A program made the translations under genes and the position numbers. From Bacteroidota bacterium (GTDB taxonomy: Bacteria > Bacteroidota > Bacteroidia > UKL13-3), in contig CANHVU010000029.1 in the NCBI GenBank assembly GCA_947464275.1, positions 1 to 35,430 on the forward strand: a DNA stretch of 35,430 nt. Reading direction: 5' to 3'. This document shows, piece after piece, positions 16,698-34,682 of this stretch; within the stretch, counting starts at the first letter, position 1; each line of letters begins with the position of its first letter. The notes beneath the pieces are model-generated. The model was not told where the DNA came from and made no database searches. It was given only the letters and a program-made list of their open reading frames with translations.

Positions 16698-17693
16698 TTA
16701 TTGCTGCGCCACTTCCTGACTGTAATGCTCTTCTACTTGACTTATAACTGCTAAAATTTCTTCTAATTTATTTAAGGTAACCAATTTGGTTCTAAATTCT
16801 TTAAAATGATTTAAGCCTTTAAAATACGAAGTGTAATGTCTGCGCATTTCTAAAACACCTAAGCCTTCGCCTTTCCACTCCACACTTTTGGTTAAATGTT
16901 TGCGACACACTTCTACTCTTTGCGCAATAGTTGGTGCTGGCAATAATTGGCCTGTAGCCATGTAATGTTTTATTTCATTAAAAATCCAAGGATAACCAAT
17001 GGCAGCGCGGCCAATCATAACGCCATCAACGCCATAGCGGTTTTTATATTCAACTGCTTTTTCTGGGCTATCAATATCGCCATTACCAAAAATTGGAATT
17101 TTAATATTAGGGTTATTTTTAATTTTTCCAATCAAAGTCCAATCGGCTTCGCCTTTGTACATTTGAGCGCGCGTTCTACCATGAATACTCAATGCTGCAA
17201 TGCCTACATCTTGCAAACGTTTGGCTACATCTTCTACGTTTTTGGAATTTTCGTCCCAACCCAAACGAGTTTTTACTGTAACTGGTAGCTTGGTTGATTT
17301 TACAACTGCTTCGGTTAAACGAACCATGAGTTCAATATCTTTTAAAACGCCTGCTCCAGCTCCTTTACAAACCACTTTTTTTACTGGACAACCAAAGTTA
17401 ATATCTACTAAATCAGGATTTACTGTATCCACAATTTGGGTAGCCATAGCCATAGCTTCTTCATCGCCACCAAAAATTTGTATGCCTATTGGCCTTTCGT
17501 AATCAAAAATATCGAGTTTTTTTCTGCTTTTAATGGCATCTCTAATTAATCCTTCTGACGAAATAAACTCTGTGTACATCAGGTCTGCACCGTTATCTTT
17601 GCACACAGCTCTAAAAGGCGGATCACTAACATCTTCCATTGGAGCAAGCAAAAGTGGAAAATCGCCTAATTCTATATTACCTATTTTTACCAA
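16698..17693 (-). CDS. dusB: tRNA-dihydrouridine synthase B
   Basis: A 331-residue flavoenzyme that reduces uridine in tRNA to dihydrouridine. Visible: FMN-binding LLAPMEDVSDPPFR near residues 15-28, the catalytic-cysteine motif NFGCPVKKVV (Cys 102), VTVKTRLGWD, SIHGRTRAQMY with its conserved His, and GNGDI/GVMIGRAAIG at the phosphate-binding end of the barrel. The length and the PVKKVV motif place it in the DusB subfamily. The gene is divergent from the membrane operon, with only 42 bp between the two starts. Confidence 0.95.
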   Translation of the reverse strand: MVKIGNIELGDFPLLLAPMEDVSDPPFRAVCKDNGADLMYTEFISSEGLIRDAIKSRKKLDIFDYERPIGIQIFGGDEEAMAMATQIVDTVNPDLVDINFGCPVKKVVCKGAGAGVLKDIELMVRLTEAVVKSTKLPVTVKTRLGWDENSKNVEDVAKRLQDVGIAALSIHGRTRAQMYKGEADWTLIGKIKNNPNIKIPIFGNGDIDSPEKAVEYKNRYGVDGVMIGRAAIGYPWIFNEIKHYMATGQLLPAPTIAQRVEVCRKHLTKSVEWKGEGLGVLEMRRHYTSYFKGLNHFKEFRTKLVTLNKLEEILAVISQVEEHYSQEVAQQ

Positions 17694-17722
17694 TTATTTA
17701 TTTTAAAATTATATTGCGCTCA

Positions 17723-17730
17723 CAAAAATA
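17723..17730 (-). promoter_or_regulatory. Candidate -7 box of dusB
   Basis: TATTTTTG on the minus strand lies 29 bp before the dusB start, within the 42-bp divergent gap. Its -33 element would fall inside the CPBP coding sequence, and no clear TTTG is there. Confidence 0.35.
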
Positions 17731-17735
17731 ACAAA

Positions 17736-18689
17736 ATGTTTAAGATACCCTCATTTGCATCCAACCCAATTGTGTTCTTTTTATGGCACTTGCTCATACT
17801 GATTGGAATGATTATTACCTTTTATATAGTTGGGGGGGTATTAGCAATTGGAATTACCAAAACATTTTTTGGCGTTGATTTACAAAGTTCATTTTTCGAT
17901 ATCATTAATCACCCTGGTGAATATCCACAAGGGGTTTTGGCCTTAAAGCTGAATCAAGGAATTATTTCAATTGCCATTTTTATAGTGCCCGCATTGTTGT
18001 TTAGCAGGTCAATTAACCAAAATCCAATTCATTTTTTACACTTAAAACATAAGACCCGTATTTATAATTATTTGTTTATAATCATATTAATTATTTCGGC
18101 TATTCCTGTTTCCTCTTGGCTTTTGGAACTAAACCAAAATTTACATTTGCCAGATAGTTTAAAAGAGTTTGAAACTTATTTACGCGGTGACGAAGCTTTT
18201 AGTAAACTCCAATCTGAAGCTTTTGTTAGAGCCAATGGAATAGATCAATTGATATTGAATATTTTTATTGTAGCGGTAATTCCTGCCATTGCCGAAGAAA
18301 TATTTTTTAGAGGTTGTTTACAAAATTTTGTGCGCATGTGTTTTTATAATTTACATGTTTCAGTATTCTTTACCGCCATTATTTTCAGCGCTATTCATGG
18401 CGATTATTTTGGCTTTTTACCACGATTTATGTTTGGTGTGGTATTAGGTTATGCTTTTGCTTACAGTGGCAATATTTGGGTAACGGTGTTAGGTCACTTT
18501 CTAAATAATACCATAACCATTTTAGCATTTTATATTTCCGAAAAACATCCTGAAATTGAATATTTTAAAGATGATTATAATTTTCCAATTTATTTAACAG
18601 CAATAGCGGCTTTTGGAGTGGTAATTGTTTTATTTGCAATGAGCAAATTAAGGTTTAACCAAATATTTATAAAACATACAAATGATTGA
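17736..18689 (+). CDS. CPBP family intramembrane metalloprotease
   Basis: A 317-residue protein with about eight membrane segments. The C-terminal half carries the CPBP (Rce1/Abi) signatures: EEIFFRG (Glu 187, Glu 188, Arg 192), FSAIH (His 221) and HFLNN (His 254, Asn 258), so the active site looks complete. Such proteases cleave substrates within or near the membrane; bacterial substrates are mostly unknown. It opens a tight operon: the next gene overlaps its end by 8 bp, and a second CPBP gene closes the operon. Confidence 0.88.
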   Translation: MFKIPSFASNPIVFFLWHLLILIGMIITFYIVGGVLAIGITKTFFGVDLQSSFFDIINHPGEYPQGVLALKLNQGIISIAIFIVPALLFSRSINQNPIHFLHLKHKTRIYNYLFIIILIISAIPVSSWLLELNQNLHLPDSLKEFETYLRGDEAFSKLQSEAFVRANGIDQLILNIFIVAVIPAIAEEIFFRGCLQNFVRMCFYNLHVSVFFTAIIFSAIHGDYFGFLPRFMFGVVLGYAFAYSGNIWVTVLGHFLNNTITILAFYISEKHPEIEYFKDDYNFPIYLTAIAAFGVVIVLFAMSKLRFNQIFIKHTND

Positions 18690-18888
18690 TTGGGTAAAAG
18701 TTACAGAGGTAAAAGATATTTTCACCTCGCAAAATATTATTACATTTTTGGCTGAAAATGGCATTGAGGCATCAGAAATTAACAAAACCGATAGCAGCTA
18801 CGCAGGCGCTTTTGGAAAAATTGAAATATATTGCCACCAAGAAGATGCGGTTATGGCCATGCATTTAATTGAAAAAAATAAAATTTAA
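18682..18888 (+). CDS. DUF2007 family small protein
   Basis: A 68-residue soluble protein of the DUF2007 (putative signal-transducing) family: TEVKDIFTSQNIITFLAENG followed by a beta strand (GKIEIYC) and a closing helix (EDAVMAMHLIEKN). Its length is normal for the family, and its fold suggests a small ferredoxin-like regulatory domain. Its start lies inside the end of the CPBP gene (8-bp overlap), implying translational coupling. The function is unknown. Confidence 0.8.
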   Translation: MIDWVKVTEVKDIFTSQNIITFLAENGIEASEINKTDSSYAGAFGKIEIYCHQEDAVMAMHLIEKNKI

Positions 18889-18902
18889 AGTAAAACTATA
18901 TC

Positions 18903-19721
18903 ATGAGTAATTTTTGGCAAAGAGCCATTACAGGTTTCTTTTTTGTATTAGCCATTGTGCTTTGCACAGTAATGAACGAATGGGCTTTTTATATTTTGTT
19001 GTTTGCAATCAATTTTTTATGCTTGCGCGAATTTTTCCAATTGATGCTGCCCGATAAAAACTGGATTGAGCAATATTTAGGTGTAATAGCTGGAAGTATT
19101 ATCAATATTATGTTTGCCTTAATTATTAGAAACGATTGGGATTTTAGCTGGTTTTACCACTTAATTCCAGTGTTTTTATTAATGATAATTATAAAACTTT
19201 TTGAAAAAACTAAACGCGAGTTTGACACCTTGGCTTATCAAGTTTTAGGTATTATTTATATTTGTTTTCCATTGAGCATGTTGGCCGATTTTGGTCGTTT
19301 TAACAGTTTAACTTACGATGGTGCCTTGCCGATTGGTTTCTTTATCATGCTTTGGACTTGCGATACTGGCGCCTATTTAGTTGGCCGAAAACTTGGAAAA
19401 CGTAAATTATTTGAACGCATTAGCCCTAAAAAAACTTGGGAAGGCAGCATGGGTGCGGCTGTATTTGTAATTTTAGTAGCATTTGTTTTTACCCAGTTCG
19501 ATTATTTTGATATATTAGAACTACACGAATGGATTATTTTTGGTATATTAACTTTAATATTTGGCACCTTTGGCGATTTAACTGAATCGCTTTTAAAACG
19601 CAATATTGATGTAAAAGATTCGGGAAACTTACTACCCGGTCACGGTGGAGTTTTAGATAGATTTGATGGCTTGTTTTTAGCTGTTCCTGCAGTATATTTT
19701 TATTTGATTTTTACTACTTAA
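18903..19721 (+). CDS. cdsA: Phosphatidate cytidylyltransferase
   Basis: A 272-residue integral membrane enzyme that makes CDP-diacylglycerol from phosphatidic acid and CTP, the entry point to phospholipid synthesis. The signature near the C-terminus is intact (SLLKRNIDVKDSGNLLPGHG, then DRFD), preceded by SPKKTWEGSMG and GDLTES. Seven or eight membrane segments are visible. It is the third gene of the operon, 14 bp after DUF2007 and 12 bp before the second CPBP gene. It is the only gene there with an essential known role. Confidence 0.95.
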   Translation: MSNFWQRAITGFFFVLAIVLCTVMNEWAFYILLFAINFLCLREFFQLMLPDKNWIEQYLGVIAGSIINIMFALIIRNDWDFSWFYHLIPVFLLMIIIKLFEKTKREFDTLAYQVLGIIYICFPLSMLADFGRFNSLTYDGALPIGFFIMLWTCDTGAYLVGRKLGKRKLFERISPKKTWEGSMGAAVFVILVAFVFTQFDYFDILELHEWIIFGILTLIFGTFGDLTESLLKRNIDVKDSGNLLPGHGGVLDRFDGLFLAVPAVYFYLIFTT

Positions 19722-19733
19722 TAGTTTTAGTAA

Positions 19734-20513
19734 ATGATAAAAGCTTTGGTAAGTAAAGTTTACCACGATACTGAAAACAACAAAACAGAAACCATAAAAT
19801 TACAAGCTTTTATAGTTTGTATAGCTTCGGCAGTTTGTATCAGTTTGGATGAGTATTTTGGTCAAGCTAACTTTACTTTTGATTTTTTACACCAAGTAGG
19901 TTTACATAAAATAGCCGATGTTTATGCCAATTTAGTGAACGATAAATTATATGCCTTGGCTTTTTGGGTTGGGGTAATAGTTTTGTTTTATGGCTTGGTG
20001 CCTTTGGCAATTATCAAATTTATTTTTAAAGATCAATTTTCAAACTATGGTTTAGGAATAAAAGGCGCTTTAAAAGATTACAAAATTTACCTTTTAATGA
20101 TTGCTATTATGATGCCTTTGGTATTTACAGCTTCATTTACCGAAAGTTTTCAACACAAATATCCTTTTTACAAATTGCAAGTTGGCGAAGGATTATATCC
20201 ACGTTTTTTGGCCTGGGAATTACTTTACTTAATTCAATTTTTTGCGGTGGAGTTTTTCTTCCGAGGATTTATGGTGCATGGCAATAAAAAGCGTTTTGGC
20301 TTTTACAGCATTTTAGTAATGACTATTCCATATTGTATGATTCATTTTGGAAAACCCTTGCCCGAAACTTTAGCAGCCATTATTGCAGGATTGGTTCTTG
20401 GCGTATTGAGTTTAAAAAGCAATAGCATTTGGCTTGGCGTTGCCATTCATTTTTCCGTAGCTATCACCATGGATTTTTGCTCACTTTGGCAAAATGGATT
20501 ATTGTTTAAATAA
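19734..20513 (+). CDS. CPBP family intramembrane protease, second copy
   Basis: A 259-residue membrane protein with CPBP motifs: VEFFFRG (Glu 173, Arg 177; the first Glu of the usual EE pair is Val), MIHFGKPLPE (His 204) and a last catalytic segment with His 239 and Asp 247. It ends the cdsA operon. The last 28 codons and stop (20427-20513) recur almost identically at 24678-24764, where they abut the gamma-carbonic anhydrase gene. This implies that the gene once converged directly on that gene and that its present 3' end may have come with inserted DNA. Confidence 0.85.
   Translation: MIKALVSKVYHDTENNKTETIKLQAFIVCIASAVCISLDEYFGQANFTFDFLHQVGLHKIADVYANLVNDKLYALAFWVGVIVLFYGLVPLAIIKFIFKDQFSNYGLGIKGALKDYKIYLLMIAIMMPLVFTASFTESFQHKYPFYKLQVGEGLYPRFLAWELLYLIQFFAVEFFFRGFMVHGNKKRFGFYSILVMTIPYCMIHFGKPLPETLAAIIAGLVLGVLSLKSNSIWLGVAIHFSVAITMDFCSLWQNGLLFK
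20427..20513 (+). repeat. 87-bp direct repeat, left copy (3' end of CPBP gene)
   Basis: Codons 232-259 plus the stop of the CPBP gene. 84 of 87 bases match 24678-24764, and the three differences are all silent third-position changes (Gly, Val, Ser codons). Identity ends exactly at the stop codon on the right. Confidence 0.95.
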
Positions 20514-20676
20514 TAGTAGGATTACTTTTTATGGTCTATTAATTTGTAAACCTACTAAATTATTCGAATAAATAAATGGATAATCATTAAAATCGACAAC
20601 CTCATTTTGTTTTAGTTATAACTCTTTTAAACCTATTGCATACGTTTGGTGTTTTTAGCTACTGTAAGAAAGTTAT

Positions 20677-23019
20677 CTATGGCCTAATGCTAATAATTCC
20701 ATTATTACTATTAATATCCAAAATAGGATAATCAGCAAAATCTACTGATGCATCACCATTTAGGTCGTTTGCATCATATCCTAACACACCATTTTGGCTA
20801 GTTATATCCAATGAAGGGTAGTCAGCAAAATCTATGGAACCATCTTGATTTATATCACCACTGTAAATTGCAAATACCCCATTACCCAAATTACTCAGGT
20901 TATTTCCATAAGCTTTATTTGCAGCATTTTTAAAATTATAAGTTGAGCCAACAGGAATAACCCTGAATGCTGATGCACTCCATGTTTCAATAGAATTGCG
21001 ATGTTTAATAACAATGTAATAACTACTATCTATGGTTGTTGTAGGCAGGTTAATATCAGCTAGTCCATTTATATCAATCGTAACTTTTGATGAATACAAC
21101 AAATCGAATGGAGAAACATCTGCTCGCAACTCAATAATTATAGTATCAGCAATATTAGTAGGTGTAATTCCATTAGCATTAAATGGAGCTGAATACATAC
21201 CGTTATTACCATCATACAAACCTTCTAAAAATGCATTCACAGTTACATTAACATTTGATAAAATAGTGCCCGACAAGTATGTGTTTTTTATTTTTGCACT
21301 TGCATCACCTTTGCCACTACCACCAGAAAATGCTGGCAAGTAAGATACATTTACAGCACCAGAGACGTTGCTTGAAAGACTCGGTGAGCAGCCATTGGCG
21401 ACAATTACGCAGTAATAATAAAAGCGGCTAACACTGTTGCTTAATGGTCTGTATGTACTGCTTGTTCCGTTGGTTGAAATAAGTGTTCCTCCTGTGTTTT
21501 GTGGCAGTATATTTTTATACCATTGGTAAGTTAAAGATGATGATGACGAAGCTGATACGCTTAACAAAGTAGCTGTATCTCCTAAACCAAGGTTTTGGTC
21601 CGTTGTGTTTGGTTGAGATGTGAAATTAGCACAGCTAACATTTACTGCACCTGATACGCTGCTTACAGTAGCGCATCCATTCGCAGTTAGCAAACAATAA
21701 TAATATTTAATACCAATTAAATTTGTGGGTGGCGTGTAGGTATTTGTTGTTCCTCCTGAAGCCGAACCTACTGATGTGCCGCCAATATTTGAAGCAGTGC
21801 TATTGCTATACCATTGATATGTGATGGCATTACTTGATGTAGCTATTATAGTTATATTTTGCGGTGTTCCATTTACAGCCATTAGTTGGTCTGTGCTGTT
21901 AGGTTGTGCGGTAATAGTAATATCTGTGCAGGTTTTTGAAATATCACCTCTGCCACTACCACCCAAAAAAGCAGGTAAATACTCCACATTAATTGCACCC
22001 GATACATTGCTTGTAATGCTAGGTGAGCAGCCAGCCACACTTACCGTACAATAATAATAATACCTGCTAACAGAATTGCTTAATGGGGTATAGGTATTTG
22101 TGTTTGCACCCAAAATACTTGAGCCATCTGTATTTTGAGGTTTAGTATTTCTATACCATTGATATGTTATACTGTTTGAGGCAGACACTACTACACTTAA
22201 ACTACTATTATTTACATTTAAACCTACATACTTGTCTGTATCATTAGGTTGAGATGTGAAAGCTGCACAATTAACCACCACTGCGCCCGACACACTGCTA
22301 ACTGTGGTGCAGCCATTTGCGGTGAGCATACAATAATAATAGATTGTGCCAATGGTATTTGTTGAGGGCGTGTAGGTATTAGTATTGCCACCCGAAGCAC
22401 TGCCCACAGAAGTACCACCTGTATTGCTAGCATTGGTGTTGCCATACCATTGGTATGCAATACTACCGCTTGATGTAGCCGCTACTTGTAAGGTTAGTGT
22501 GCTTGAATTGATGACAGTTGCTTGGTTTTCACTATTGGGTTGAGAAGTAATAGTAACATCACTGCATGTTTTGGAAATGTCTCCTCTTCCTGTTCCTCCA
22601 AAAGTGTAAGGATAAGTGATAATTAAATCTATACCATTGTCTGCGCTGGTAATGGCAGGGTTTGATGCCATAATTCTAATTCTATAGCCACTACCTGCAA
22701 CGGTGTTGGAGGGTATGGTAGCATTAATAACACCTGAACTTGTGCCTACTAAAGTGCCAATATTGCTAACACTTGCAAACGAACCTGAGCTATTGGATAA
22801 CTGAGCCGTAAAAACATTTCCTGAATTAAAAGTACCTGTTTTGGTAAAAGTAATACTAAGGCTTGCCGACAAACTACCCGATGCTTGTATTGGATAACCC
22901 GCAGCATAGCTAATAGAAGAAATGCCAATGGAAATAGCTTTAGCTTGAAAGCTATAAAAGACACATGCCAAAAATAGGGCAAAAACAAATAATTTGGGTT
23001 GGTGGTAAAGGCTTTTCAT
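20677..23019 (-). CDS. Secreted Ig-like repeat protein with dockerin-like C-terminus
   Basis: A 780-residue exported protein. Signal peptide about 1-28; a beta domain to about 138; then two long repeats, each with a GG(S/T)GRGD(I)SKTC linker and two Ig-like units (TSQPN, YQWY, TYTP, YYYC, ANGC, SSVSGAV); a third linker GGSGKGD at 566-572; a further beta domain; and a dockerin-like tail with two calcium-binding loops (GDINQDGSIDFADY and DLNGDASVDFADY). It looks like a cell-surface adhesive or structural protein. No T9SS sorting motif is evident; the dockerin-like pair occupies its place. The gene follows the FGE-like gene by 5 bp in one operon. The two genes lie inside the segment bounded by the 87-bp repeat. 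Confidence 0.82.
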   Translation of the reverse strand: MKSLYHQPKLFVFALFLACVFYSFQAKAISIGISSISYAAGYPIQASGSLSASLSITFTKTGTFNSGNVFTAQLSNSSGSFASVSNIGTLVGTSSGVINATIPSNTVAGSGYRIRIMASNPAITSADNGIDLIITYPYTFGGTGRGDISKTCSDVTITSQPNSENQATVINSSTLTLQVAATSSGSIAYQWYGNTNASNTGGTSVGSASGGNTNTYTPSTNTIGTIYYYCMLTANGCTTVSSVSGAVVVNCAAFTSQPNDTDKYVGLNVNNSSLSVVVSASNSITYQWYRNTKPQNTDGSSILGANTNTYTPLSNSVSRYYYYCTVSVAGCSPSITSNVSGAINVEYLPAFLGGSGRGDISKTCTDITITAQPNSTDQLMAVNGTPQNITIIATSSNAITYQWYSNSTASNIGGTSVGSASGGTTNTYTPPTNLIGIKYYYCLLTANGCATVSSVSGAVNVSCANFTSQPNTTDQNLGLGDTATLLSVSASSSSSLTYQWYKNILPQNTGGTLISTNGTSSTYRPLSNSVSRFYYYCVIVANGCSPSLSSNVSGAVNVSYLPAFSGGSGKGDASAKIKNTYLSGTILSNVNVTVNAFLEGLYDGNNGMYSAPFNANGITPTNIADTIIIELRADVSPFDLLYSSKVTIDINGLADINLPTTTIDSSYYIVIKHRNSIETWSASAFRVIPVGSTYNFKNAANKAYGNNLSNLGNGVFAIYSGDINQDGSIDFADYPSLDITSQNGVLGYDANDLNGDASVDFADYPILDINSNNGIISIRP
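21325..21963 (-). repeat. Internal super-repeat unit 2 of the Ig-like protein gene
   Basis: Encodes residues 353-565, a linker plus two Ig-like units, homologous to residues 141-352. The unit is about 212-213 codons. The protein repeats are clearly alike, with substitutions throughout, so the duplication is not recent. Confidence 0.75.
21964..22599 (-). repeat. Internal super-repeat unit 1 of the Ig-like protein gene
   Basis: Encodes residues 141-352, with the same order as unit 2: linker GGTGRGDISKTC, Ig-like unit A with an SVGSASGG insert, then Ig-like unit B with PLSNSVSR. The A-B order is kept in both, so the duplicated unit was the pair, not the single Ig domain. Confidence 0.75.
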
Positions 23020-23024
23020 AGTGT

Positions 23025-24611
23025 TTATTGTGCTGAACGAACTCCACGGCCTACGAAACCTCCGTTTCTTGACGAACCCACATTACTATCTATATAGGAC
23101 CTATTAGATACTTCTAGCAATTGCTGATAATCAGTAAAGTAACCTCCTCTGCTACCTATGCCTGAATTTGAAGAAGGCCAATTAGAAACATTAAACAAAC
23201 CATCTGATTGAAGGATTCCATTGCCGTGGTCACCAGTAAAACTTCTACCTGAAGACAAATATAGGTTAATTGCTAGTTCACCTGCATTACCACTCAATTC
23301 CATTATTCCGTAAAAAGAACTACCAGAAGTGACTCTACCTAAATTATTTGAATTAGAGGCGAAAATACCTACTCTAAGTGGGCCGACTCCATAGGCATAA
23401 GCAGCATTACCTTGATTTAATGTTGTACTATAATTACTACTGATAGCTTCATTTGTATAACCTGAATTACTTAAATCATGTTCTGCAACAAAAATGCTTG
23501 ATGTACCCCATGCATATTCACCACTTACAGGGGTTTGATTTCCTCGACAGGCTTTTTCAAATTCCATTTCGGTTATTGGTCGTAAGCCTGACCAATCTAA
23601 AAATGAACCGAAATCAGCCCAATTAATGTTTGCTATTGCAATAAATTCCCCATCACTGCTTTCGTCATAAACCCCATTGTCGTTTAAATCACAACCAAAA
23701 ATTGCTGGAACAGTACTTACAACCCCAGCAGTTTTTACTTTTAATTTATTTCTCCATGTATCAGGCATATAAGGATTTACAAAATTACCTACAGTAACTA
23801 TATCTAAAGAACATTTACTTGTTTGCTGAGTATAGGTTAGTGTATTTAAAAAGTCTCTGTATTGTCCAACTGTCAATTCATACTTCATACTATAAAAGGC
23901 ATTATATCCATTTGGCCAACTAGAGCTTGTTGGCGCGGTTTGACCAGTTGGATAACCACCAGCTTGTCCGCCCAAACTACCTATGCCACTAGGCGCTGTG
24001 GTTGCATTACCTGTATTTATTGTGGTTAATGAAAATCTTGGTGCCGCTTGATATTCAATACTTTCATCTTTACCATCACCTACTGCAAAAGTACCTGTAG
24101 GCACATATACCATTTCTATGGCAAATACTTTTACATCCAAAACGGCATTATCAGCCACACCTTGGCTGCCATAATTCCAGCGCAATTGCACATTTTGGTA
24201 GTTTACATTGCCATTACCATCAGCATTTTTGTATATAAAAACACCCACTGCTGGGTTTGTGGTGGCATTAAAAGTAGAAGAAGGTGCTACCAATCCTGCA
24301 TCTATGGTACTGCCTGTTGGTGCTGTGTGCCCTGTATTGTTTAGGTTACAGTGGTTCCAAGCACCACCATTCACTCGGTACTTTACAAACACCCATGCAG
24401 CATCCCAATTTAATGCAGAAGAACGCCATGAATTTTCCCAAGCTATGTTAAATTTTACTAAAGAATAGTTAGCTGCATTATTTACTCCAGCAGTCGTATT
24501 CTTTCCGGTAATGCTAATACCAGAAACGCTGATATTGTTGGCGTTTATTTGTAATGTTTGTATAAAAAAACCACTAATAAAAAGTAATGACGCTCTTAAG
24601 ATTTGTTTCAT
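23025..24611 (-). CDS. Secreted FGE/SUMF1-like domain protein
   Basis: A 528-residue protein with signal peptide (about 1-24), a beta-rich N-terminal domain (about 25-165) and a formylglycine-generating-enzyme-like fold (about 168-528), seen in MVYVPTGTFAVGDG, SMKYELTVGQYRDFLNTL and LRPITEMEFEKACRG. The C-terminal end (GSRGGYF, GFVGRGVRSAQ) keeps the fold's last strands but has no cysteine, so the redox pair of true FGE is absent. It is probably a non-catalytic surface or sugar-binding version. A calcium-loop-like DLNDNGVYDESSDG lies in the middle. It is the first gene of the two-gene cassette; no sulfatase is encoded nearby. Confidence 0.85.
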   Translation of the reverse strand: MKQILRASLLFISGFFIQTLQINANNISVSGISITGKNTTAGVNNAANYSLVKFNIAWENSWRSSALNWDAAWVFVKYRVNGGAWNHCNLNNTGHTAPTGSTIDAGLVAPSSTFNATTNPAVGVFIYKNADGNGNVNYQNVQLRWNYGSQGVADNAVLDVKVFAIEMVYVPTGTFAVGDGKDESIEYQAAPRFSLTTINTGNATTAPSGIGSLGGQAGGYPTGQTAPTSSSWPNGYNAFYSMKYELTVGQYRDFLNTLTYTQQTSKCSLDIVTVGNFVNPYMPDTWRNKLKVKTAGVVSTVPAIFGCDLNDNGVYDESSDGEFIAIANINWADFGSFLDWSGLRPITEMEFEKACRGNQTPVSGEYAWGTSSIFVAEHDLSNSGYTNEAISSNYSTTLNQGNAAYAYGVGPLRVGIFASNSNNLGRVTSGSSFYGIMELSGNAGELAINLYLSSGRSFTGDHGNGILQSDGLFNVSNWPSSNSGIGSRGGYFTDYQQLLEVSNRSYIDSNVGSSRNGGFVGRGVRSAQ

Positions 24612-24677
24612 GAAAATAAAAAATTATTCTTTTGCAAGTAAGAATAAATAAGGTAATAATGCAATATTTGTTTTTAA

Positions 24678-24764
24678 ATTTGGCTTGGAGTAGCCATTCA
24701 TTTTTCAGTAGCTATCACCATGGATTTTTGCTCACTTTGGCAAAATGGATTATTGTTTAAATAA
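24678..24764 (+). repeat. 87-bp direct repeat, right copy (detached CPBP 3' end)
   Basis: Same reading frame and stop as the CPBP gene end but with no gene attached: the frame upstream is AT-rich intergenic DNA. Three silent differences separate it from the left copy. Its last 8 bp are also the end of the gamma-carbonic anhydrase gene on the other strand, so this copy is at the ancestral position. Confidence 0.95.
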
Positions 24765-25284
24765 GAACCTCCAAATACGCTTTGCTTAAATCCACGTAAC
24801 TTTGGGCATTACGTTTTATCTTTTCTACTTGTTCAGGTGTAATTTGTTTAACCACTTTAGCAGGTGAACCCAATACCAATGAATAGGGTGGAATTTGCGT
24901 ACCATCAGTTACCAAAGCATTTGCCCCAACTATGCTAAAATCGCCAATAACAGCATTGTTTAAAATTGTGGAGTGCATGCCAATTAATACATGGTTGCCA
25001 ATTTTAGCACCATGCACAATAGCGGAATGACCAATGATACAATCATGTCCGATATGAGTTGGGCAGTTGGGATCTACATGCACCACTGCATTGTCTTGTA
25101 TATTACTTCTATCGCCAATAATTATTTCATCTCCATCGGCACGCAAAACAGCACCAAACCAAATGGAAACCTCATTGCCTAAATTTACATTGCCTATAAC
25201 TGTAGCATTTGGTGCTATAAATACTTCATTACCTTTAACGATTGGCTTGGTTAAAGTGAGTTTCATTTTTTCTTTATCAAACAT
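24757..25284 (-). CDS. Gamma-carbonic anhydrase family protein
   Basis: A 175-residue left-handed beta-helix protein of the YrdA/PaaY type. Hexapeptide repeats (VIGNVNLG, IIIGDRSN, IGHDCIIGHS, HGAKIGNHVLIG) run through residues 25-140. Candidate metal ligands His 69, His 86 and His 91 keep the family spacing. It may hydrate carbon dioxide, but many members have weak or other activity. It starts 6 bp after the serine hydrolase stop, forming an operon. Its last two codons and stop overlap the detached CPBP 3' end. Confidence 0.9.
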   Translation of the reverse strand: MFDKEKMKLTLTKPIVKGNEVFIAPNATVIGNVNLGNEVSIWFGAVLRADGDEIIIGDRSNIQDNAVVHVDPNCPTHIGHDCIIGHSAIVHGAKIGNHVLIGMHSTILNNAVIGDFSIVGANALVTDGTQIPPYSLVLGSPAKVVKQITPEQVEKIKRNAQSYVDLSKAYLEVLI

Positions 25285-25290
25285 TTTATT

Positions 25291-26448
25291 TTACAAGGCT
25301 AAAGCAATATCTAAGTATACAAAAATATCGTCTGGTAATTCATCACCTTTTTTAGTAGCACGTTTATGGCCGGTTCTTACTGCAATTAAATTACTATCAG
25401 GCACTGCAAAAATGTATTGCCCCCTAATTCCTCTGCAATAAAATATATCGTGGCCTTTGTGTTTCATAACCCACCATTGGTAACCATATTTATCGTTTGG
25501 CTTACCATCAATATCTTTTAAATTAGCCAATTGAATAGATTCTTGAATATATGATGAATCTAATATTTGCTCACCACTCCAATTGCCTTTGTTCATGTAA
25601 AGTTTAGCAAATCGCGCAAAATCGCGGGCTGTAGCATACCAACAGCAGCTTACTTTTTCCATTCCATCAGCTTTATCTAAACTCCAAAAAGCAGGTTGTT
25701 CTGCACCCATTTTTTGCCATAAATTTTCAGCAGCAAACTGCGAAACGGTTTTATTGCCCAAAACTTTTTTCAAAATTATTCCTAATAATTGTGTGTCGCC
25801 TCCTTTGTATTTCCAAGTAATTCCAGGTGTTTCTTTTACTACTGCTTTTACAGTTAAGGCATTTACATCGTTTCCGTAATAAGCCTCACTTGGCCATGCT
25901 AAAGGACTATTATACGTTTCATCAAAATCAATTCCGCTGCTCATAGTAAGCAAATGTTTGATGGTAATTTTTGCTTTGTCACCTTCCTTGTAACTATCAA
26001 TATAATTGCCAACTGGCTCATCCACACTTTGAATCAAACCTTGTTTAATGGCAATACCAATTAAAGCAGCAGTAAAACTTTTAGCCATACTGAACGAGTT
26101 GGTTACACTTTTATCGTTATACTGCTCCCAATAGTTTTCATAAATAATCGAATCGTTTTTAATCACCAAAAATGAAGTTGTTTTAAACGATTCCATTTTT
26201 TGCATCAGGCTTGCATCAATTTTAGCCTTGTTATAATTTACCGAAACTGCCCAAGGTTGTGGTTTGGTAGCAGCCATTTCTCGGTAAGGAAATAAATGAA
26301 GTTCATCAATATCAGGACTCATTTTACCATTAAAAATAGTCATGGCAAAAACCCGGTTTAAAAATGTTTTGCCACTAATTAATATGGCAGCTTCGCCAAT
26401 AACCAACAAGCTAATTATTACTATAAAAAACCATTTGATGAATTTCAT
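25291..26448 (-). CDS. Serine hydrolase, class C beta-lactamase/penicillin-binding family
   Basis: A 385-residue protein with one N-terminal membrane segment or signal anchor (about 4-24). The catalytic SxxK motif is SMAK (Ser 120, Lys 123); a Tyr-containing motif WKYKGGDTQLLG lies near residue 215; and the C-terminal GYQWWVMKHKGHDIFY / IRGQYIFAVPDS block is typical of Bacteroidota family members. The substrate is unknown (peptide, ester or lactam), and antibiotic resistance should not be assumed. The first bases of this gene and its upstream region (26423-26525) are repeated in decayed form at 27635-27734. Confidence 0.88.
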   Translation of the reverse strand: MKFIKWFFIVIISLLVIGEAAILISGKTFLNRVFAMTIFNGKMSPDIDELHLFPYREMAATKPQPWAVSVNYNKAKIDASLMQKMESFKTTSFLVIKNDSIIYENYWEQYNDKSVTNSFSMAKSFTAALIGIAIKQGLIQSVDEPVGNYIDSYKEGDKAKITIKHLLTMSSGIDFDETYNSPLAWPSEAYYGNDVNALTVKAVVKETPGITWKYKGGDTQLLGIILKKVLGNKTVSQFAAENLWQKMGAEQPAFWSLDKADGMEKVSCCWYATARDFARFAKLYMNKGNWSGEQILDSSYIQESIQLANLKDIDGKPNDKYGYQWWVMKHKGHDIFYCRGIRGQYIFAVPDSNLIAVRTGHKRATKKGDELPDDIFVYLDIALAL

Positions 26449-26622: not shown

Positions 26623-27570
26623 ATGAACTTAAATACTATTCCAAAACTTGTTTTTATGATGCTATCATTAATAGCAATCAAAGCCTCTGCACAGGATTTA
26701 TTATTAACAACTAGTAACGATAGTATCCAATGTAAAATTATTGAAATCAATAAAAATGATAGTATAGAATACATTTACTTCAAAGGGGGAATTAAAAAAA
26801 CCGAAAAGTTAAATTTGAATAGTTTTTTAAAAGTAATTCCCAATTTTTACTTGGTTAAATCTCAAAACAAGGTTGATTCTATCATTAACATTCAAAACAC
26901 CAAATACTTTCAAAAATTAAAAGAAAAATCTTTCTTTAAGGATATTAATAATCGAATATCACTTGATTATACTTACTCGGCAAGAGTAAGGGAGCCTTCT
27001 TTGTTAATTTATAACGGCAAAACAAAAGTTGTAGAAAAAGATAAAGAACAGTTTACTGAATTACAAGGTTACCAACTAGAATTCTCCTTGTCAATAAACA
27101 AGGATAAGAACTTGTTTTTAGGTGTTATTGTAAGTAATTTAACTAATGAAATTAAAAACTATAAAATTGCAGGCTTACCAAATGCTCCTATTCAACAATA
27201 TGATGCAAGTAACCAAATTAGTAGTTTAGGAGTTAAAGGGATGTATTTATTTCAGTCAAAAAGAGCGTACAATAACCTTTTTATTATTTTAGGTTTAAAT
27301 AAAACTTTTTATAAAGAGGAGTTATACGCTACTAATTATTATACGCTTTACACAAGTAGTACTTACTCACCTTTTGGTGGTTTTAATTATGATTTTAGAT
27401 TTCATAAAAATCTTGCAGTAGGTTTAGGTTTATTGTTTGAAGCTGGTTTTATTAAAGAAATAAATAGTAATAAAAATGGAACAAAAACTACCCACACATT
27501 AGATGGAAATGGTTATGATTTATTTAGGCTAAATTATTCTGCAGGGTTAAAGTACTATTTGGGCAAATAA
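26623..27570 (+). CDS. Exported protein, possible outer-membrane beta-barrel
   Basis: A 315-residue protein with signal peptide (about 1-23, ending ASAQ). The next 60 residues (LLLTTSNDSIQCKIIEINKN, EYIYFKGG) resemble a short N-terminal domain common in Bacteroidota exported proteins. The rest alternates polar and aromatic strands (LQGYQLEFSLSIN, SSLGVKGMYLF, YTLYTSSTYSPFGGFNYDF) and ends GLKYYLGK, which suggests a small outer-membrane barrel. No named family is recognised. The gene sits between two direct repeats of about 100 bp derived from the serine hydrolase 5' region, so it was probably inserted there. Confidence 0.65.
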   Translation: MNLNTIPKLVFMMLSLIAIKASAQDLLLTTSNDSIQCKIIEINKNDSIEYIYFKGGIKKTEKLNLNSFLKVIPNFYLVKSQNKVDSIINIQNTKYFQKLKEKSFFKDINNRISLDYTYSARVREPSLLIYNGKTKVVEKDKEQFTELQGYQLEFSLSINKDKNLFLGVIVSNLTNEIKNYKIAGLPNAPIQQYDASNQISSLGVKGMYLFQSKRAYNNLFIILGLNKTFYKEELYATNYYTLYTSSTYSPFGGFNYDFRFHKNLAVGLGLLFEAGFIKEINSNKNGTKTTHTLDGNGYDLFRLNYSAGLKYYLGK

Positions 27571-27634
27571 ATATTCATCGATATTTTATTTTACAAGTGA
27601 GCTCCCATTAATATTCAATCAATTAATTTTAACC

Positions 27635-27734
27635 ATAAAAACCATTTAATGAATTTCATATTTTAGTATTCATTTATGCGATTCCGAATATAAAATTATT
27701 TAGAAAATTTGGTGAGTTGGGAAATTTGTTTAAA
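27635..27734. repeat. About 100-bp direct repeat, right copy (decayed serine hydrolase start)
   Basis: On the minus strand it still reads MKFIKWF before a single-base deletion in the run of A/T shifts the frame. It is not part of any gene now. Confidence 0.8.
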
Positions 27735-27758
27735 ACATAGCATCTGTTTTCTGCTATT

Positions 27759-28021
27759 CAACTCCTTCGGAGTTGTTGACTATTTTGCCTTTATTCAATC
27801 ACAGAGTTACACTCGGTGCTATTTAAATTAAACTCCTTCGGAGTTACTTTACAAATAAAATTATTTATTACATGTTATTATTGAAGTGAGATATTTTTTA
27901 AAAGGTAGCTTGTTATATAATCGATTTCAAGAAAAAAATAACTCCAGAGGAGTTGAATTTCAATAACCCTGCATGAAATGCAGGGAAAACAAAAAGCACA
28001 AAAACAACTCCGAAGGAGTTG
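27759..28021. repeat. Cluster of AACTCC-nnn-GGAGTT hairpins and relatives
   Basis: Four palindromes share the stem AACTCC/GGAGTT with different 3-base loops: TTC at 27759-27775 and 27831-27845, AGA at 27940-27954, GAA at 28005-28021. Between them lie a degenerate hairpin (ACAGAGT-TAC-ACTCGGT, 27801-27817) and a different perfect one (CCCTGCATGAAATGCAGGG, 27967-27985). Spacing is irregular (about 56-107 bp), unlike a CRISPR array. Confidence 0.85.
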
Positions 28022-28071
28022 AATATAAAAAATACGAGAAAGAATCTATAAAGTTTATTTTAGAAATTTAG

Positions 28072-28079
28072 TAGTTTTG
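28072..28079 (+). promoter_or_regulatory. Candidate -7 box of the first erythromycin-esterase-like gene
   Basis: TAGTTTTG matches TAnnTTTG and lies 33 bp before ATG 28113. No good -33 element at 19 bp. Confidence 0.35.
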
Positions 28080-28112
28080 ATCAAATGTTTTTCAATCAAA
28101 TCACTCAACAAA

Positions 28113-29036
28113 ATGAAGTTTAAGAGTTTTCTAAAACCAATTTATTTAAAAAGTTCTGTCAGGATTTTATTTGTAATTAGTTGCTTGTTTTTTATGTTTC
28201 AAACGGATTTACAAGCTCAAGTTGCTGGAACTTCGTTTACGAATGAAGAAAAAAAACAATTACTTGAAGCAGTTAAAAACAAAAAAATAGTAGCTATTGC
28301 TGAAAATGTACATTGGATAAAAGAATATAAAGAAGACCAGTATAATATAAGCAAACTTTTAATCGATAGTTTGGGTTTTGATGCCATATTTATTGAAGTT
28401 TCCAACATTCAAGTGAATAATGACCTTAGAATTAATGAATTTAAAATTTATGAAAAGACATACAAATTGGCTAGTGAAATGAAAATACCAATTATTGGAA
28501 TAAATACTGCCTTTGGTGGAGATATAAGAATAATAATTGAAGCTACTAAAATAAAGGATTCTTTATTCTCACATGAGCTAAATAAAATATTTATACTCAA
28601 CAATTCAAATGAGGCTTATTATTGGTATAAAATGCCGCTAAACGAATTGGAAGACTTGAAAAACCAGGTGCTAAAATTATCACCAAATAACTACACACTC
28701 TCTGCATATCCGAATGTAATTAATGATTTAGTTGAAAATATAAATTATATTTCACTAAAACGAACTAGAACTGACTTAATAAGAGATTCCTTTATGTTTG
28801 CAAAAGTCAATAATTACCTACTTGAAAACCCAAACCACAAGGTTGTTGTAATAGCACATAGTAAGCACTTAGCAAAATCTCCAAAAATTCGAAGGCAGAA
28901 TTTAGGAGTACTTTTAAATGAAAAATATAAAAATGACTATTTTGTCATTTCAACTGAATTTGAGAAAGGAATTATTTATACCTCTAAGGAAAAGCAAAAA
29001 CAAGATACAAGTTATTTTAAACCTATTTCTAATTGA
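28113..29036 (+). CDS. Erythromycin-esterase-like protein, probably truncated by an in-frame TGA
   Basis: A 307-residue exported protein with a signal peptide (about 1-35, ending LQAQ). It keeps the family's acidic/His landmarks in order: IAENVH (Glu 64, His 67), FIEV (Glu 95), RDSFMFAK (224-231) and IAHSKHLAK (His 249, His 252). It is shorter than its neighbour (405 residues) and lacks the C-terminal strands. The frame reopens immediately after the TGA and encodes exactly that missing end (29037-29231). I start at ATG 28113; the TTG at 28077 would place non-signal residues in front. Family members hydrolyse macrolide lactones or unknown esters; the function here is unknown. Confidence 0.75.
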   Translation: MKFKSFLKPIYLKSSVRILFVISCLFFMFQTDLQAQVAGTSFTNEEKKQLLEAVKNKKIVAIAENVHWIKEYKEDQYNISKLLIDSLGFDAIFIEVSNIQVNNDLRINEFKIYEKTYKLASEMKIPIIGINTAFGGDIRIIIEATKIKDSLFSHELNKIFILNNSNEAYYWYKMPLNELEDLKNQVLKLSPNNYTLSAYPNVINDLVENINYISLKRTRTDLIRDSFMFAKVNNYLLENPNHKVVVIAHSKHLAKSPKIRRQNLGVLLNEKYKNDYFVISTEFEKGIIYTSKEKQKQDTSYFKPISN

Positions 29037-29231
29037 AAAACTATATGGAATGATAAAAAAATTACCATTAAGAGGATAATGAGCGCAAAAGAAATAAGTA
29101 ATAAAAAATATACAGCGCAATTTATTGGAGCTAGTTTTCAAAAAAGTTATGGATTAAGAAAAGTATATTATAACGAGTTATTTGATTTAATTATTACTTA
29201 CCCAACCATTAATTATCAAGGGTTGAAATAA
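29037..29231 (+). pseudogene. In-frame C-terminal tail of the erythromycin-esterase-like gene, cut off by TGA
   Basis: 64 codons continue in the same frame after TGA 29034-29036. The segment FIGASFQKSYGLRKVYY followed by FDLIITYPTIN aligns in pattern with the last part of the neighbouring paralogue (RAIGDRF, then SSKYYYTKQ, then FNGLIFTRKS). With the tail restored the protein would be about 372 residues. An internal ATG at 29079 could start a 50-residue fragment, but that is unlikely to be a separate gene. A sequencing error at the TGA would give one intact gene. Confidence 0.65.
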
Positions 29232-29267
29232 ATAAATTTTCTTTAAAATGTTAAAAAACTACTAAAT

Positions 29268-30485
29268 ATGATTCTCAATAGAACAATTATACTTTCACTT
29301 TTACTCGCAATTTCTAAACTCGTTTATACCCAAAATATAAGTAAAGTTGATATTACAAAATTTAATGTAAAAGACACTCAATTATTAAATAAAATAGTAG
29401 GTGATTGTAGAGTTATTGGACTGGGTGAATCTGCTCATGGTGCAGGAACAATTTATGATTTAAAGGCTGATGTTATTAAAGAATTGGTTTTAAAGCATAA
29501 TTTTAAAAATATTGTATTTGAAAGTTTTTTTTGGGGTACGCAAACCATGAATAAGTATATACATAATGAAAATGTAGATATTAAGGATGCTTTTTTAGAT
29601 ATGGGTGTTGGTGTATGGATAAATAACGAGGTTTATAACTTAATGAAATGGCTAAAGGATTATAATCTTGATAAACCCGATAGTTTAAAAGTTAGTTTAT
29701 ATGGATGCGATGTTTGGGGAATTACAATAATTTCACAACATTTTAAAAGCCATCCTTGGGTACTAAAAAATTTGAGCAGTTCCTCCATAGAAACTCTGGA
29801 TTCGCTAAGTAATTATTCTAAATGGAAAAAAACCAAGACAGGTATTGAACAAACTAAGTTGCTTTATAATGATTTTCGAAAAAATTATATCCCAAATGCT
29901 TTTGAAACAATTGAAGAGAATTACATTGTTACATTACTTTCAGACTATTTAAAGAAATGCAAGTTGAAACATGGTTATAGAAGCGCTGTAGTTCGAGATG
30001 AAATAATGGCAAAATCCATAATTTATTTAACTGAACAAAAGCCTAACGAAAAATTTATTATTTGGGCGCACAATGAACATATAGCCAAAGCTCGAAATTC
30101 AACGTTTATTTACCCAATGGGAGGACATTTAAAAAATTTTTTTGGGACGAAATACAAAGCAATAGCTTTTTCATTTTATTTTGGAGAAATAAATACATAC
30201 AATGTTGTCAAAAAAAGCCAAGAGTATTGTGTAACAGACACCGCAATCAAAAATTCTATTGAAGCAATTGCTTCGGGTTTCAATGGTGACTTGGCGTATA
30301 TAAATTTTGAAAATTCAATAGAAAGTAATAAACTCTTAGGTAAAAAATCAATACGTGCAATTGGGGACAGATTTAAATTTGATAGCTCTAAATATTATTA
30401 CACCAAACAAAAACTGTATAAGGGTTTTAATGGACTAATTTTTACTAGAAAATCAGATGTTGCCCATAAACTAACTCTTGATTAA
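29268..30485 (+). CDS. Erythromycin-esterase family protein
   Basis: A 405-residue exported protein with signal peptide (about 1-22, ending VYTQ). All family landmarks are present: GLGESAHG (53-58, Glu 54 and His 57), VFESF (Glu 85), the RDEIMAKS helix (243-250), IIWAHNEHIAKA (His 268, His 271), and PMGGHLKNFFG (about 283-293), with a terminal GFNGLIF strand. The chemistry known for the family is hydrolysis of cyclic esters such as the erythromycin lactone ring, but most environmental members are untested. It lies 36 bp after the broken paralogue in the same direction, a tandem duplication with strong divergence. Confidence 0.85.
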   Translation: MILNRTIILSLLLAISKLVYTQNISKVDITKFNVKDTQLLNKIVGDCRVIGLGESAHGAGTIYDLKADVIKELVLKHNFKNIVFESFFWGTQTMNKYIHNENVDIKDAFLDMGVGVWINNEVYNLMKWLKDYNLDKPDSLKVSLYGCDVWGITIISQHFKSHPWVLKNLSSSSIETLDSLSNYSKWKKTKTGIEQTKLLYNDFRKNYIPNAFETIEENYIVTLLSDYLKKCKLKHGYRSAVVRDEIMAKSIIYLTEQKPNEKFIIWAHNEHIAKARNSTFIYPMGGHLKNFFGTKYKAIAFSFYFGEINTYNVVKKSQEYCVTDTAIKNSIEAIASGFNGDLAYINFENSIESNKLLGKKSIRAIGDRFKFDSSKYYYTKQKLYKGFNGLIFTRKSDVAHKLTLD

Positions 30486-31068: not shown

Positions 31069-32823
31069 CTACTTTTTATTAAACTGTGTTTCGTAAAGAC
31101 TGGTGTAAAAACCGTCTTTTATTTGCAGTAAACTTTCGTGGGTGCCGCGTTCTTTTATTTCGCCTTTGTCTAATACCAAAATTTCGTTTGCTTTTTGAAT
31201 GGTTGAAAGCCTGTGTGCAATTACAATACTGGTGCGGCCTTCCATCATTTTAGCAATGGCATACTGAATAATATCTTCTGTTTCTTGGTCAATGCTAGAG
31301 GTTGCTTCATCTAAAACCAAAACTGTTGGATTAACTACCATGGCTCTTACGAACGAAATCAATTGCCTTTGTCCCATACTTAAAGTTAAGCCACGTTCTT
31401 GTACCAATTGATTATAACCATTGGGCAACCTGCTAATAAACTCATGAGCACCTAACAGTTTTGAGGTAGCAATTACTTGCTCCATGGTTATTTCCTTATT
31501 GTAAAGCGTTATATTATCGTAAATAGAACCGCTGAATAAAAATACATCTTGCAAAACCACCGCAATATGCTTTCGTAAAGTATCTGTTTGGTATTGTTTA
31601 AGCTCAACGCCATCTATCAAAATTTGTCCTTTTTGATAATCGTAAAACCTGCTTAATAAATTTATGATGGATGATTTTCCAGCTCCTGTTGCTCCAACTA
31701 AAGCCATATTTTTTCCTTTAGTTAAGTTAAACGAAATATCTTTTAAAACATAATCTTCATCAATATAAGCAAAACCAACATTTTTAAATTCAACTTCACT
31801 TTTTAGTGTTTCAAATGGAATATTTCCGGTTGGTTCAATATATGTTTCATCATCCACCAAAGCAAAAATACGTTTACTAGCCACCATGCCCATTTGCAAC
31901 GTATTGAACTTATCTGCTATTTGACGGATTGGCCTAAAAATCATAGATATGTACATAATAAACGCTACAATAACACCCGCAGATGCTTGTCCGTTAATGG
32001 TTTCCTTAGCTCCATACCAAACTACCAAACCAATGGCTATACTCGAAATAATTTCTACAATTGGAAAAAAAACAGAATAATAAAAAACACCTCTAATATT
32101 GGCATCTCTGTGGTCTTTATTGATGGCTTTAAATTTTTCTAACTCTTCATCTTGCTTGTTAAAAATTTGAACTATTTGCATGCCAATTAAATGTTCTTGC
32201 ACAAATGTATTTAGCTCAGAAACTTTGTTTCGAACTTCCTCAAACGATACCCTAACACTTTCCTTAAACCAATAAGCTGCAACCAATAAAAAAGGCAATA
32301 CCGAAAGACTAACCAAGGTAAGTTTCCAGCTTGCAAAAAACATTAAACCCAGAATAAATATTATTTGGAGCAGATCGCCCATAATACTGATGAAGCCTTC
32401 GCTAAATACTTCGGTAATGGTTTCAATATCGCTAATGCAGCGTGTTACCAAGGTTCCCACAGGTGTATTATCAAAAAACTTTAAACGTAGTTTGCTTAAA
32501 TGAGAAAATACTTTTGCTCTTAAATCTTTAATAATTAATTGCCCCAAAAGGGCACCCAAATAACTTGATAACAACTGAAAAACAGTTGATAAAATAAGCA
32601 TGCCAAATACAATGGCAGAATATAAATAAATGTTTTTAAAATCGCCTTTAGGAATAAAATTATCAATGATGTATTGAATAATATATGGCCTAATGGTAGA
32701 TAATAGCGCAAAAAGAATGGTAAATAAAAAGGTAAACCAAAACAATTTAGCATGTGGACCTGATAACTTAAAAAGTCGTTTTAAAATATTGCTTTCAAAC
32801 GCGCTTGGTTTACTTTTTTGCAT
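31069..32823 (-). CDS. ABC exporter, fused permease and ATPase (MsbA-like)
   Basis: A 584-residue half-transporter that works as a homodimer or heterodimer in the inner membrane. The N-terminal 320 residues hold six membrane helices of the type I exporter fold. The ATPase half has Walker A GATGAGKSS, the Q-loop LQDVFLFSGSI, the signature LSMGQRQ (S-M-G in place of the common S-G-G), Walker B VLVLDEATSS and the H-loop IAHRLST. The substrate (lipid or drug) cannot be told. It is the third gene of a def-gpsA-ABC run, 16 bp after gpsA, so a lipid link is possible but only by context. Confidence 0.92.
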   Translation of the reverse strand: MQKSKPSAFESNILKRLFKLSGPHAKLFWFTFLFTILFALLSTIRPYIIQYIIDNFIPKGDFKNIYLYSAIVFGMLILSTVFQLLSSYLGALLGQLIIKDLRAKVFSHLSKLRLKFFDNTPVGTLVTRCISDIETITEVFSEGFISIMGDLLQIIFILGLMFFASWKLTLVSLSVLPFLLVAAYWFKESVRVSFEEVRNKVSELNTFVQEHLIGMQIVQIFNKQDEELEKFKAINKDHRDANIRGVFYYSVFFPIVEIISSIAIGLVVWYGAKETINGQASAGVIVAFIMYISMIFRPIRQIADKFNTLQMGMVASKRIFALVDDETYIEPTGNIPFETLKSEVEFKNVGFAYIDEDYVLKDISFNLTKGKNMALVGATGAGKSSIINLLSRFYDYQKGQILIDGVELKQYQTDTLRKHIAVVLQDVFLFSGSIYDNITLYNKEITMEQVIATSKLLGAHEFISRLPNGYNQLVQERGLTLSMGQRQLISFVRAMVVNPTVLVLDEATSSIDQETEDIIQYAIAKMMEGRTSIVIAHRLSTIQKANEILVLDKGEIKERGTHESLLQIKDGFYTSLYETQFNKK

Positions 32824-32839
32824 TTAGTTTTATAAAATT

Positions 32840-33865
32840 CTATACTAATTTTTCGCTTAGTTTTTCTATTTCAAATTTTGCCGGCAGGTTGCGGTAAATA
32901 ATATTATACATGGCATCCATTATAGGCATTTTTATGTTCATGGTTTGGTTTAGTTCATAAACAGTTTTAGTAGCATAATAGCCTTCGGCAATCATTTTCA
33001 TTTCTAATTGTGCAGATTTTACTGAATAACCTTTGCCAATCATGTTTCCAAAAGTACGGTTACGGCTGTGTTGCGAATAACCTGTTACCAATAAATCGCC
33101 AAGGTAGGCTGAGTGATTTATTTTTCTATCAGCATCAGTTATAGTGCGCAAAAAACGTTTCATTTCTCTAATGGCATTGCTCATTAATACTGCTTGAAAA
33201 TTATCGCCATAACCCAAGCCATGACACATTCCTGCGGCAACTGCATAAATGTTTTTAAGAACAGCTCCATATTCAGTGCCACGTACATCTTTCGAAATTA
33301 CAGTTCTTATATTTTTATTAGCCACCATACTGGCAAAATGCCTTGCCATAGTTTGGTTTGAGCTAGCAATGGTTAAGTATGATAATTTTTCAGAAGCTAC
33401 TTCTTCAGCATGACAAGGACCTGAAATTACCACAATTTGGTCTTCAGAAATTTGAAAATCATTTACAAAAAAATCGCCTACAATTTGTTTGGTATGAGGC
33501 ACCAATCCTTTTACTGCCGACACAATGGTTTTACCTTTTAAATCTTCAGCGGTAATGCCTTCTAAACTATTTAATAAAAATGCAGAAGGAATAGCAATTA
33601 CCAATAAATCGCTGGTTTTAATTATTTCTTTTAAATTACTACTCACCTCAATTGATTGAGGATGAATTTCAACTGTACTTAAATAATCAGGATTGTAATG
33701 CTTTTCTCTTATAAAATTTGCTTTTTCTTCAGAACGAACCCACCATTGCAACTTGTTTAAAGTTGGTTCAGGTAATTCCTTATGCTCTATAAGCATTTTT
33801 ACGATAGCAGTAGCCCAACTTCCACCGCCAATTACAGCTACATTTTTAGGTAAATTTTGTTCCAT
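32840..33865 (-). CDS. gpsA: Glycerol-3-phosphate dehydrogenase (NAD(P)+)
   Basis: A 341-residue soluble enzyme that makes sn-glycerol-3-phosphate from dihydroxyacetone phosphate for phospholipid synthesis. Visible: dinucleotide-binding VIGGGSWATAI (residues 11-21), SAVKGL with the conserved Lys, SGPCHAEEV (the usual GPSHAEEV with Cys), VLKNIYAVAAGMCHGLGYGDN, GDLLVTGYS and RNRTFG. The length is family-typical. It starts 11 bp after the def stop. Confidence 0.95.
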   Translation of the reverse strand: MEQNLPKNVAVIGGGSWATAIVKMLIEHKELPEPTLNKLQWWVRSEEKANFIREKHYNPDYLSTVEIHPQSIEVSSNLKEIIKTSDLLVIAIPSAFLLNSLEGITAEDLKGKTIVSAVKGLVPHTKQIVGDFFVNDFQISEDQIVVISGPCHAEEVASEKLSYLTIASSNQTMARHFASMVANKNIRTVISKDVRGTEYGAVLKNIYAVAAGMCHGLGYGDNFQAVLMSNAIREMKRFLRTITDADRKINHSAYLGDLLVTGYSQHSRNRTFGNMIGKGYSVKSAQLEMKMIAEGYYATKTVYELNQTMNIKMPIMDAMYNIIYRNLPAKFEIEKLSEKLV

Positions 33866-33876
33866 TAATTATCAAT

Positions 33877-34428: not shown

Positions 34429-34445
34429 TTATTTATAAAATTAGA

Positions 34446-34682
34446 TCCCGCTGTAGCGGGACGAAATGCCAAATTCGAAGTAAAAACTTCTGTATTGGAA
34501 CTTCTATTTATTATTTTTTTTCCTTTTCCGTTGACTAAAGTCAACGGAAATTTATTAGGCAATTATTATTTTTATTGGCTAAAGCCAAATTATTTTTCTG
34601 TCTGTGGCTGGTGTCCTCACCAACTACTTTTTAACTTAAACTTTTTACATACTCCGCATTAAACACTTCGCACTCCGCATTT
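34446..34682. repeat. Array of different small palindromes between def and ruvX
   Basis: In order: TCCCGCTGTAGCGGGA (34446-34461); an 11-bp-arm palindrome centred on GTTGACTAAAGTCAAC (34526-34549); TTGGCTAAAGCCAA (34575-34588); a fragment GGTGTCCTCACC of the long hairpin repeat (34610-34621); and ACTCCGCATT twice (34651-34660 and 34672-34681), the second overlapping the ruvX stop codon. The 252-bp gap has no coding content and is almost entirely such elements. Confidence 0.85.

Follow-up and report, generated by a model that had tools for sequence, protein, structure and literature searches.

A displaced copy of a CPBP-protease gene end beside surface-protein genes in a Bacteroidota genome, possibly the scar of two-step recombination with a relative's DNA

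How did the last 29 codons of a membrane-protease gene come to stand a second time behind a pair of long genes, with the protease gene left whole and no integrase in sight? The window, that is the whole stretch of DNA analysed here, is one entire contig (C29, 35,430 bases) in a 68-contig assembly of a genome referred to below as G000. Its CPBP-family (Rce1-like) membrane protease gene (19734-20513, plus strand; PF02517, 1.9e-10) is the last of a conserved block, and the 87 bp at its 3′ end (the left copy, 20427-20513, plus strand, within the intact gene) recur as a direct repeat at 24678-24764 (the right copy, plus strand, startless and made of the last 29 CPBP codons), 84 of the 87 bases (97%) being the same. 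Repeat search, genome search and translation all identify both copies, and a search of G000 with the segment returned two matches only (E 8.1e-40 and 1.3e-35), at these same two places; the initial annotation had envisaged, as evidence against its reading, a right copy found at many unrelated sites.

Both copies translate to IWLGVAIHFSVAITMDFCSLWQNGLLFK followed by the stop, i.e., the last 28 CPBP residues. They differ at 20438, 20441 and 20456 (corresponding to 24689, 24692 and 24707), all three differences being silent and falling within the first 30 bases of the segment, whilst the 57-bp stretch up to the stop codon holds none, and similarity is lost immediately past the stop, where the left copy reads TAGTAGG and the right GAACCTCC. 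The initial annotation had described this identity, its end at the stop codon and the silent nature of the differences, and repeat search, flank comparison and translation of both copies bear it out. Its further claim, that silent-only change means that both copies have been working gene ends, stands as to the pattern, whose chance would be 0.04 with the left copy constrained and the right one free, and 0.009 with both free, and is only suggestive as to the conclusion: the differences, only three in number, would fit two alleles maintained under selection.

The best explanation of the duplication, to which we give a probability of roughly 0.45, is that it is the scar of a two-step recombination with the DNA of a relative, i.e., homology-facilitated illegitimate recombination (HFIR). 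In a first step, a rearrangement would have fused the CPBP block to the block of a gamma carbonic anhydrase (gCA) gene exactly at the CPBP stop, altering the gCA end. In a second step, DNA of a close relative would have entered, bearing its own CPBP end and then surface-protein genes, by homologous exchange inside CPBP on the left side and by an illegitimate joint 87 bp ahead of the resident CPBP stop on the right, and the resident CPBP end would have been pushed 4.25 kb downstream. The CPBP gene would have stayed whole because the incoming DNA supplied its own CPBP end. We infer the order of these steps, the donor and the recombination pathway; the right joint itself is abrupt, in that CPBP homology starts at 24678 and the bases immediately to its left are unlike CPBP, as expected of a joint without extended homology; 66 bp (24612-24677) separate this joint from the start of an FGE-like gene.

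The comparison with relatives covers ten genomes of the genus including G000, one per species, two of the nine others being only 65% and 88% complete; CPBP is present in eight of the ten and gCA in all. The left block (16698-20513; Dus, CPBP, cytidylyltransferase and CPBP, by Pfam names) is retained in G001, where a contig end cuts CPBP, and in G002, G005, G008 and G009; it is partial, at a contig end, in G006, and none of it is seen around the CPBP gene of G003. Each of these seven relatives has one copy of the CPBP end, with a further partial match of 35 bases (86%) in G006. All seven have CPBP without the insert, and in none are the two flanks of the window joined. Past the CPBP stop there are five different neighbours among the seven, namely one of its own in each of G001, G002 (a fumarate hydratase, named by eye), G003 and G006, and a common one in G005, G008 and G009, assigned in G009 from similar DNA, its contig stopping 197 bp past the stop. 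Since these neighbours vary so much, strains differing after CPBP are plausible. The CPBP gene at the left of the insert is continuous and intact, and no mosaic break is visible in it against G002 or G001, the differences being scattered over the gene.

The DNA between the two copies represents genes that this lineage has gained. A gene for an FGE-like protein of 528 amino acids (23025-24611, minus strand; PF03781, 8.1e-9, profile positions 20-142 of 255) is absent from all nine other genomes in the genus search and so present in G000 alone of the ten, in agreement with the insertion of a cassette that had been proposed for this locus. The best relatives that the searches gave come from a different genus of the same family (G012 and G028, 59% identity), and nothing more similar was found outside G000 in searches of the order (64 genomes) and of a class sample (395), where FGE genes occur in 14 genomes, all of one family (at 1e-20), and in 10 (at 1e-100), respectively, G000 being included in both counts. 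The second gene (20677-23019, minus strand; PF19081, 7.6e-17) encodes an Ig-repeat surface protein of 780 amino acids that is composite: residues ~141-583 are similar to the protein paired with FGE in G012 and G028, which carry FGE+Ig gene pairs, and residues ~588-780 form a C-terminal domain that recurs at 49-62% identity in four other places of G000. The FGE+Ig pair thus exists away from the CPBP site. As a general rule, however, the pairing was rejected, only two of 19 FGE loci having an Ig partner (1e-4, flanks to ~1.5 kb). The C-terminal domain, of ~190 residues (20677-21258, and also at L154-L157 and L159), ends in two dockerin-like repeats (SVDFxDYP); no best Pfam stretch falls there, and NCBIfam gave nothing for the protein.

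The initial annotation had the enclosed DNA hold the FGE-like and Ig genes only; the two long genes stand, the word "only" does not. At 20521-20598 (minus strand; blastn and tblastx) lies the decayed 3′ end of a surface-protein gene with a dockerin-like tail, NEVVDFNDYPFIYSNNLVGLQINRP followed by a stop, which resembles the C-terminal tails of several G000 surface proteins and matches the end of a G006 gene at 72% over 79 bp (blastn 4.9e-5, tblastx 1.6e-7), scoring 37.4 bits against 33.7 for the best of 200 base shuffles. Its stop and that of CPBP are 15 bp apart and convergent, and the left CPBP copy therefore probably once had a convergent surface-protein gene after it. One contig thus holds two CPBP-stop neighbourhoods, with a convergent surface-gene end after the left copy and gCA after the right one, of which the simplest account would be recombination between two lineages that differ downstream of CPBP. 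Neither a donor with CPBP and then the insert genes nor a strain in which a fused CPBP runs straight into gCA was found. The G+C content of the insert (0.371, against 0.335 in the left block and 0.309 in the right) is a weak sign in favour of this account and could reflect the type of protein encoded.

The right-hand neighbour points to a derived joint rather than to an ancestral one. The gCA gene (24757-25284, minus strand) shares 8 bp with the right copy, and its coordinates agree with the overlap described at the outset. Compared with the ends of nine relatives, its own, EVLI and stop, is peculiar: the antisense of the CPBP fragment supplies part of the L codon and all of the I codon and the stop, whilst all nine relatives end differently and at least one residue later (in VFEG, MFNQ, VFGE, VFGEK, VFGEKI or VLSQ), with F at the position of the window's L in eight of them and L in G003. 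In addition, CPBP and gCA are separate in all seven relatives having both, each with at least 4 kb of contig past the gCA 3′ end: six carry them on separate contigs, and in G001 CPBP is split over two contig ends, its 5′ part lying ~113 kb from gCA on the same contig and pointing apart. No CPBP end is found at the 3′ side of gCA in any of the nine. The initial annotation had taken the overlap for the ancestral convergent junction and expected the two genes to adjoin, with nothing between, in related strains; such a junction is seen in no relative and, with gCA elsewhere in these genomes and its end altered in the window, the ancestral junction is rejected. The overlap is therefore a derived joint, since the gCA end is here unlike that of all nine relatives; either the CPBP end replaced the last gCA codons, or the joint may have arisen where an ancestor happened to have a short match.

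Beyond gCA, a gene for a beta-lactamase-fold protein (25291-26448, minus strand; PF00144, 9.4e-34) is its conserved partner, adjoining it in all six relatives compared (G001, G002, G003, G005, G006 and G008). In G003, G005, G006 and G008 the gCA block is continued by relatives of the genes at 31069-35091; there is no such continuation within the fetched stretch of G001, and the G002 contig stops at that point. For the ORFs of 26623-30485, the stretches fetched from around the gCA block in G003, G005, G006 and G008 gave no match; those at 28077-30485 are two adjacent ORFs with erythromycin-esterase domains (PF05139), the first covering part of the profile only. The neighbourhood on the 3′ side of gCA is also variable among relatives. 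A DinB-like gene (named by eye) next to gCA in G002 had no match in G000 in a search run without positive control, and a gene related to it (48%) is located beyond gCA in G003. In several relatives gCA is followed by short repeats like CGTCAGACGGATA (L096-L101), which may be a palindromic repeat family.

Which of the two copies is the resident one, the bases at the three differing sites do not tell. The right copy has the codons GGA, GTA and TCA and the left GGC, GTT and TCC; the right matches G006 at all three sites and G002 at two, the left matches G005 and G008 at two each, G001 and G009 tie with one site in agreement with each copy, and the TCC of the left copy is present in none of the relatives. 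When all positions of the segment are counted, G002 (82 vs 80 of 87) and G006 (67 vs 64 of 75) are closer to the right copy, G005 (76 vs 74), G008 (74 vs 72) and G003 (66 vs 65 of 84) to the left, and G001 and G009 equally close to both. The states of the relatives are thus mixed and do not point one way, which tells a little against the two-step account and a little for its main rival.

These same sites bear on the rival that survives best, which we nevertheless hold unlikely. Short copies of nearby sequence, known as templated or filler insertions, are found at rearrangement joints, and a single rearrangement could have brought the gCA block up against a surface-gene segment lying downstream of CPBP, with repair filling the joint by copying 87 bp from the CPBP end close by and the left copy later gaining silent changes. 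Neither a donor strain nor a prior CPBP-gCA fusion would be necessary, the neighbours of CPBP and gCA are both variable in the genus, and the left copy is indeed the odd one at GTT against G001 and G002, and at TCC against G002. A right copy free of constraint, however, should hold most of the changes, and the probability of its holding at most one of the three is 0.08 and of none 0.005, although the polarity on which this turns is weak. A filler of this sort resembles the locus in being a short copy of nearby sequence at a breakpoint and is unlike it in that the copy here ends exactly at the stop codon, for which it does not account, and has silent changes only, which the two-step model explains better. 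Nor is there a second such copy in the 770,199 bases screened for gene-tail duplications (460,156 of G000 including the window, i.e., ~14% of the genome, and 310,043 of relatives and other-genus loci), where repeats of 40-500 bp in either orientation, at least 75% identical, with E of at most 1e-6 and within 15 kb, exactly one copy ending no more than 8 bp from the stop of an ORF of at least 100 amino acids, gave nothing except the window's own pair.

We consider it improbable that the contig is a chimera of co-existing strains, whose two neighbourhoods the assembler joined through the identical 57-bp run. That the window is a single whole contig among 68, and that this run stops where the flanks diverge, would be consistent with it. 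Yet an overlap at the 24678 joint is not evident, because there is no CPBP sequence to the left of that joint; the gCA frame stays open through its fused end; and a swap at the repeat would still need a molecule with a CPBP fragment beside FGE.

Integration at a specific site, by an element with its att site in the CPBP 3′ end and an integrase since lost or acting in trans, seems very improbable, despite a duplicated gene end, a restored gene, abrupt flanks and differences confined to the first 30 bases of the segment, away from the stop. Some integrative elements use the 3′ end of a protein-coding gene, such as e14 and phage 21, which insert in icd in a manner comparable to that required of the CPBP end, duplicating the target end with silent differences and restoring the gene on one side, just as seen here. 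In the window, on the contrary, no integrase was found, the cargo is two genes, and no second use of the site is seen in relatives. As the initial annotation had it, an integrase is missing: neither an integrase domain (Pfam at 0.001) nor a transposase is found among the 41 window ORFs of at least 80 amino acids, the ORF at 34681-35091 being RuvX-like and not a site-specific recombinase; the window has no tRNA and the insert ends no inverted repeats of at least 18 bp, so that the marks of an insertion sequence or transposon are missing too, whereas the direct repeat that an integrase-borne element would leave does flank the insert. A second copy of the CPBP end exists in G000 alone of the eight genus genomes with CPBP, and four FGE loci checked in other genera have no such flanking repeats (direct repeats of at least 28 bp). 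The gradient of identity need not be an att core either, because G001 and G002 also share, without a mismatch, the 41 bp that follow the third difference.

Least probable of all is that the 4.25-kb unit is mobile in itself without an integrase, moving in and out by host recombination through the piece of gene end that it carries, a reading that, if true, would make the CPBP 3′ end a general gene swap point in the genus, as would fit the five different CPBP neighbours in seven relatives.

The two-step recombination with a relative's DNA has counterparts elsewhere. PMC5361080 describes a model, devised for Vibrio T6SS loci and carried over to Rhs loci by its authors, in which new modules push old gene ends downstream, and PMC2884548 ascribes variable segments in three bacterial species partly to homology-assisted illegitimate recombination. 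As in the Vibrio and Rhs cases, genes would have entered beside a conserved anchor and the old end persisted downstream of the insert; unlike in them, what is displaced is the end of a membrane-protease gene which itself remains whole, and a surface-protein pair has been carried in instead of an effector-immunity pair, as judged from one genome. The locus may be filed as a new instance of this known kind of event, with HFIR as the presumed pathway, because the Vibrio T6SS/Rhs model shares its logic of displaced gene ends. Such a scar would illustrate how surface-protein genes can pass between relatives without a dedicated recombinase, and cautions that an exact duplication of a gene end can mimic an att site when recombination and rearrangement are the likelier cause. 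If the CPBP end were a recurring swap point, it would offer a place to follow the turnover of surface genes in uncultured Bacteroidota.

Promoter-like sites in the window number 19, against 18.0 expected, and terminator-like sites six, against 3.4 (sd 2.1). The CPBP protein itself is ~43-51% identical to proteins in records titled Nitrosomonas, Opitutia and Planctomycetaceae and scores 84.9 bits against archaeomyxosortase MrtA, under the cut-off of 200; on these similarities it is possibly a sorting-type enzyme spread between phyla.
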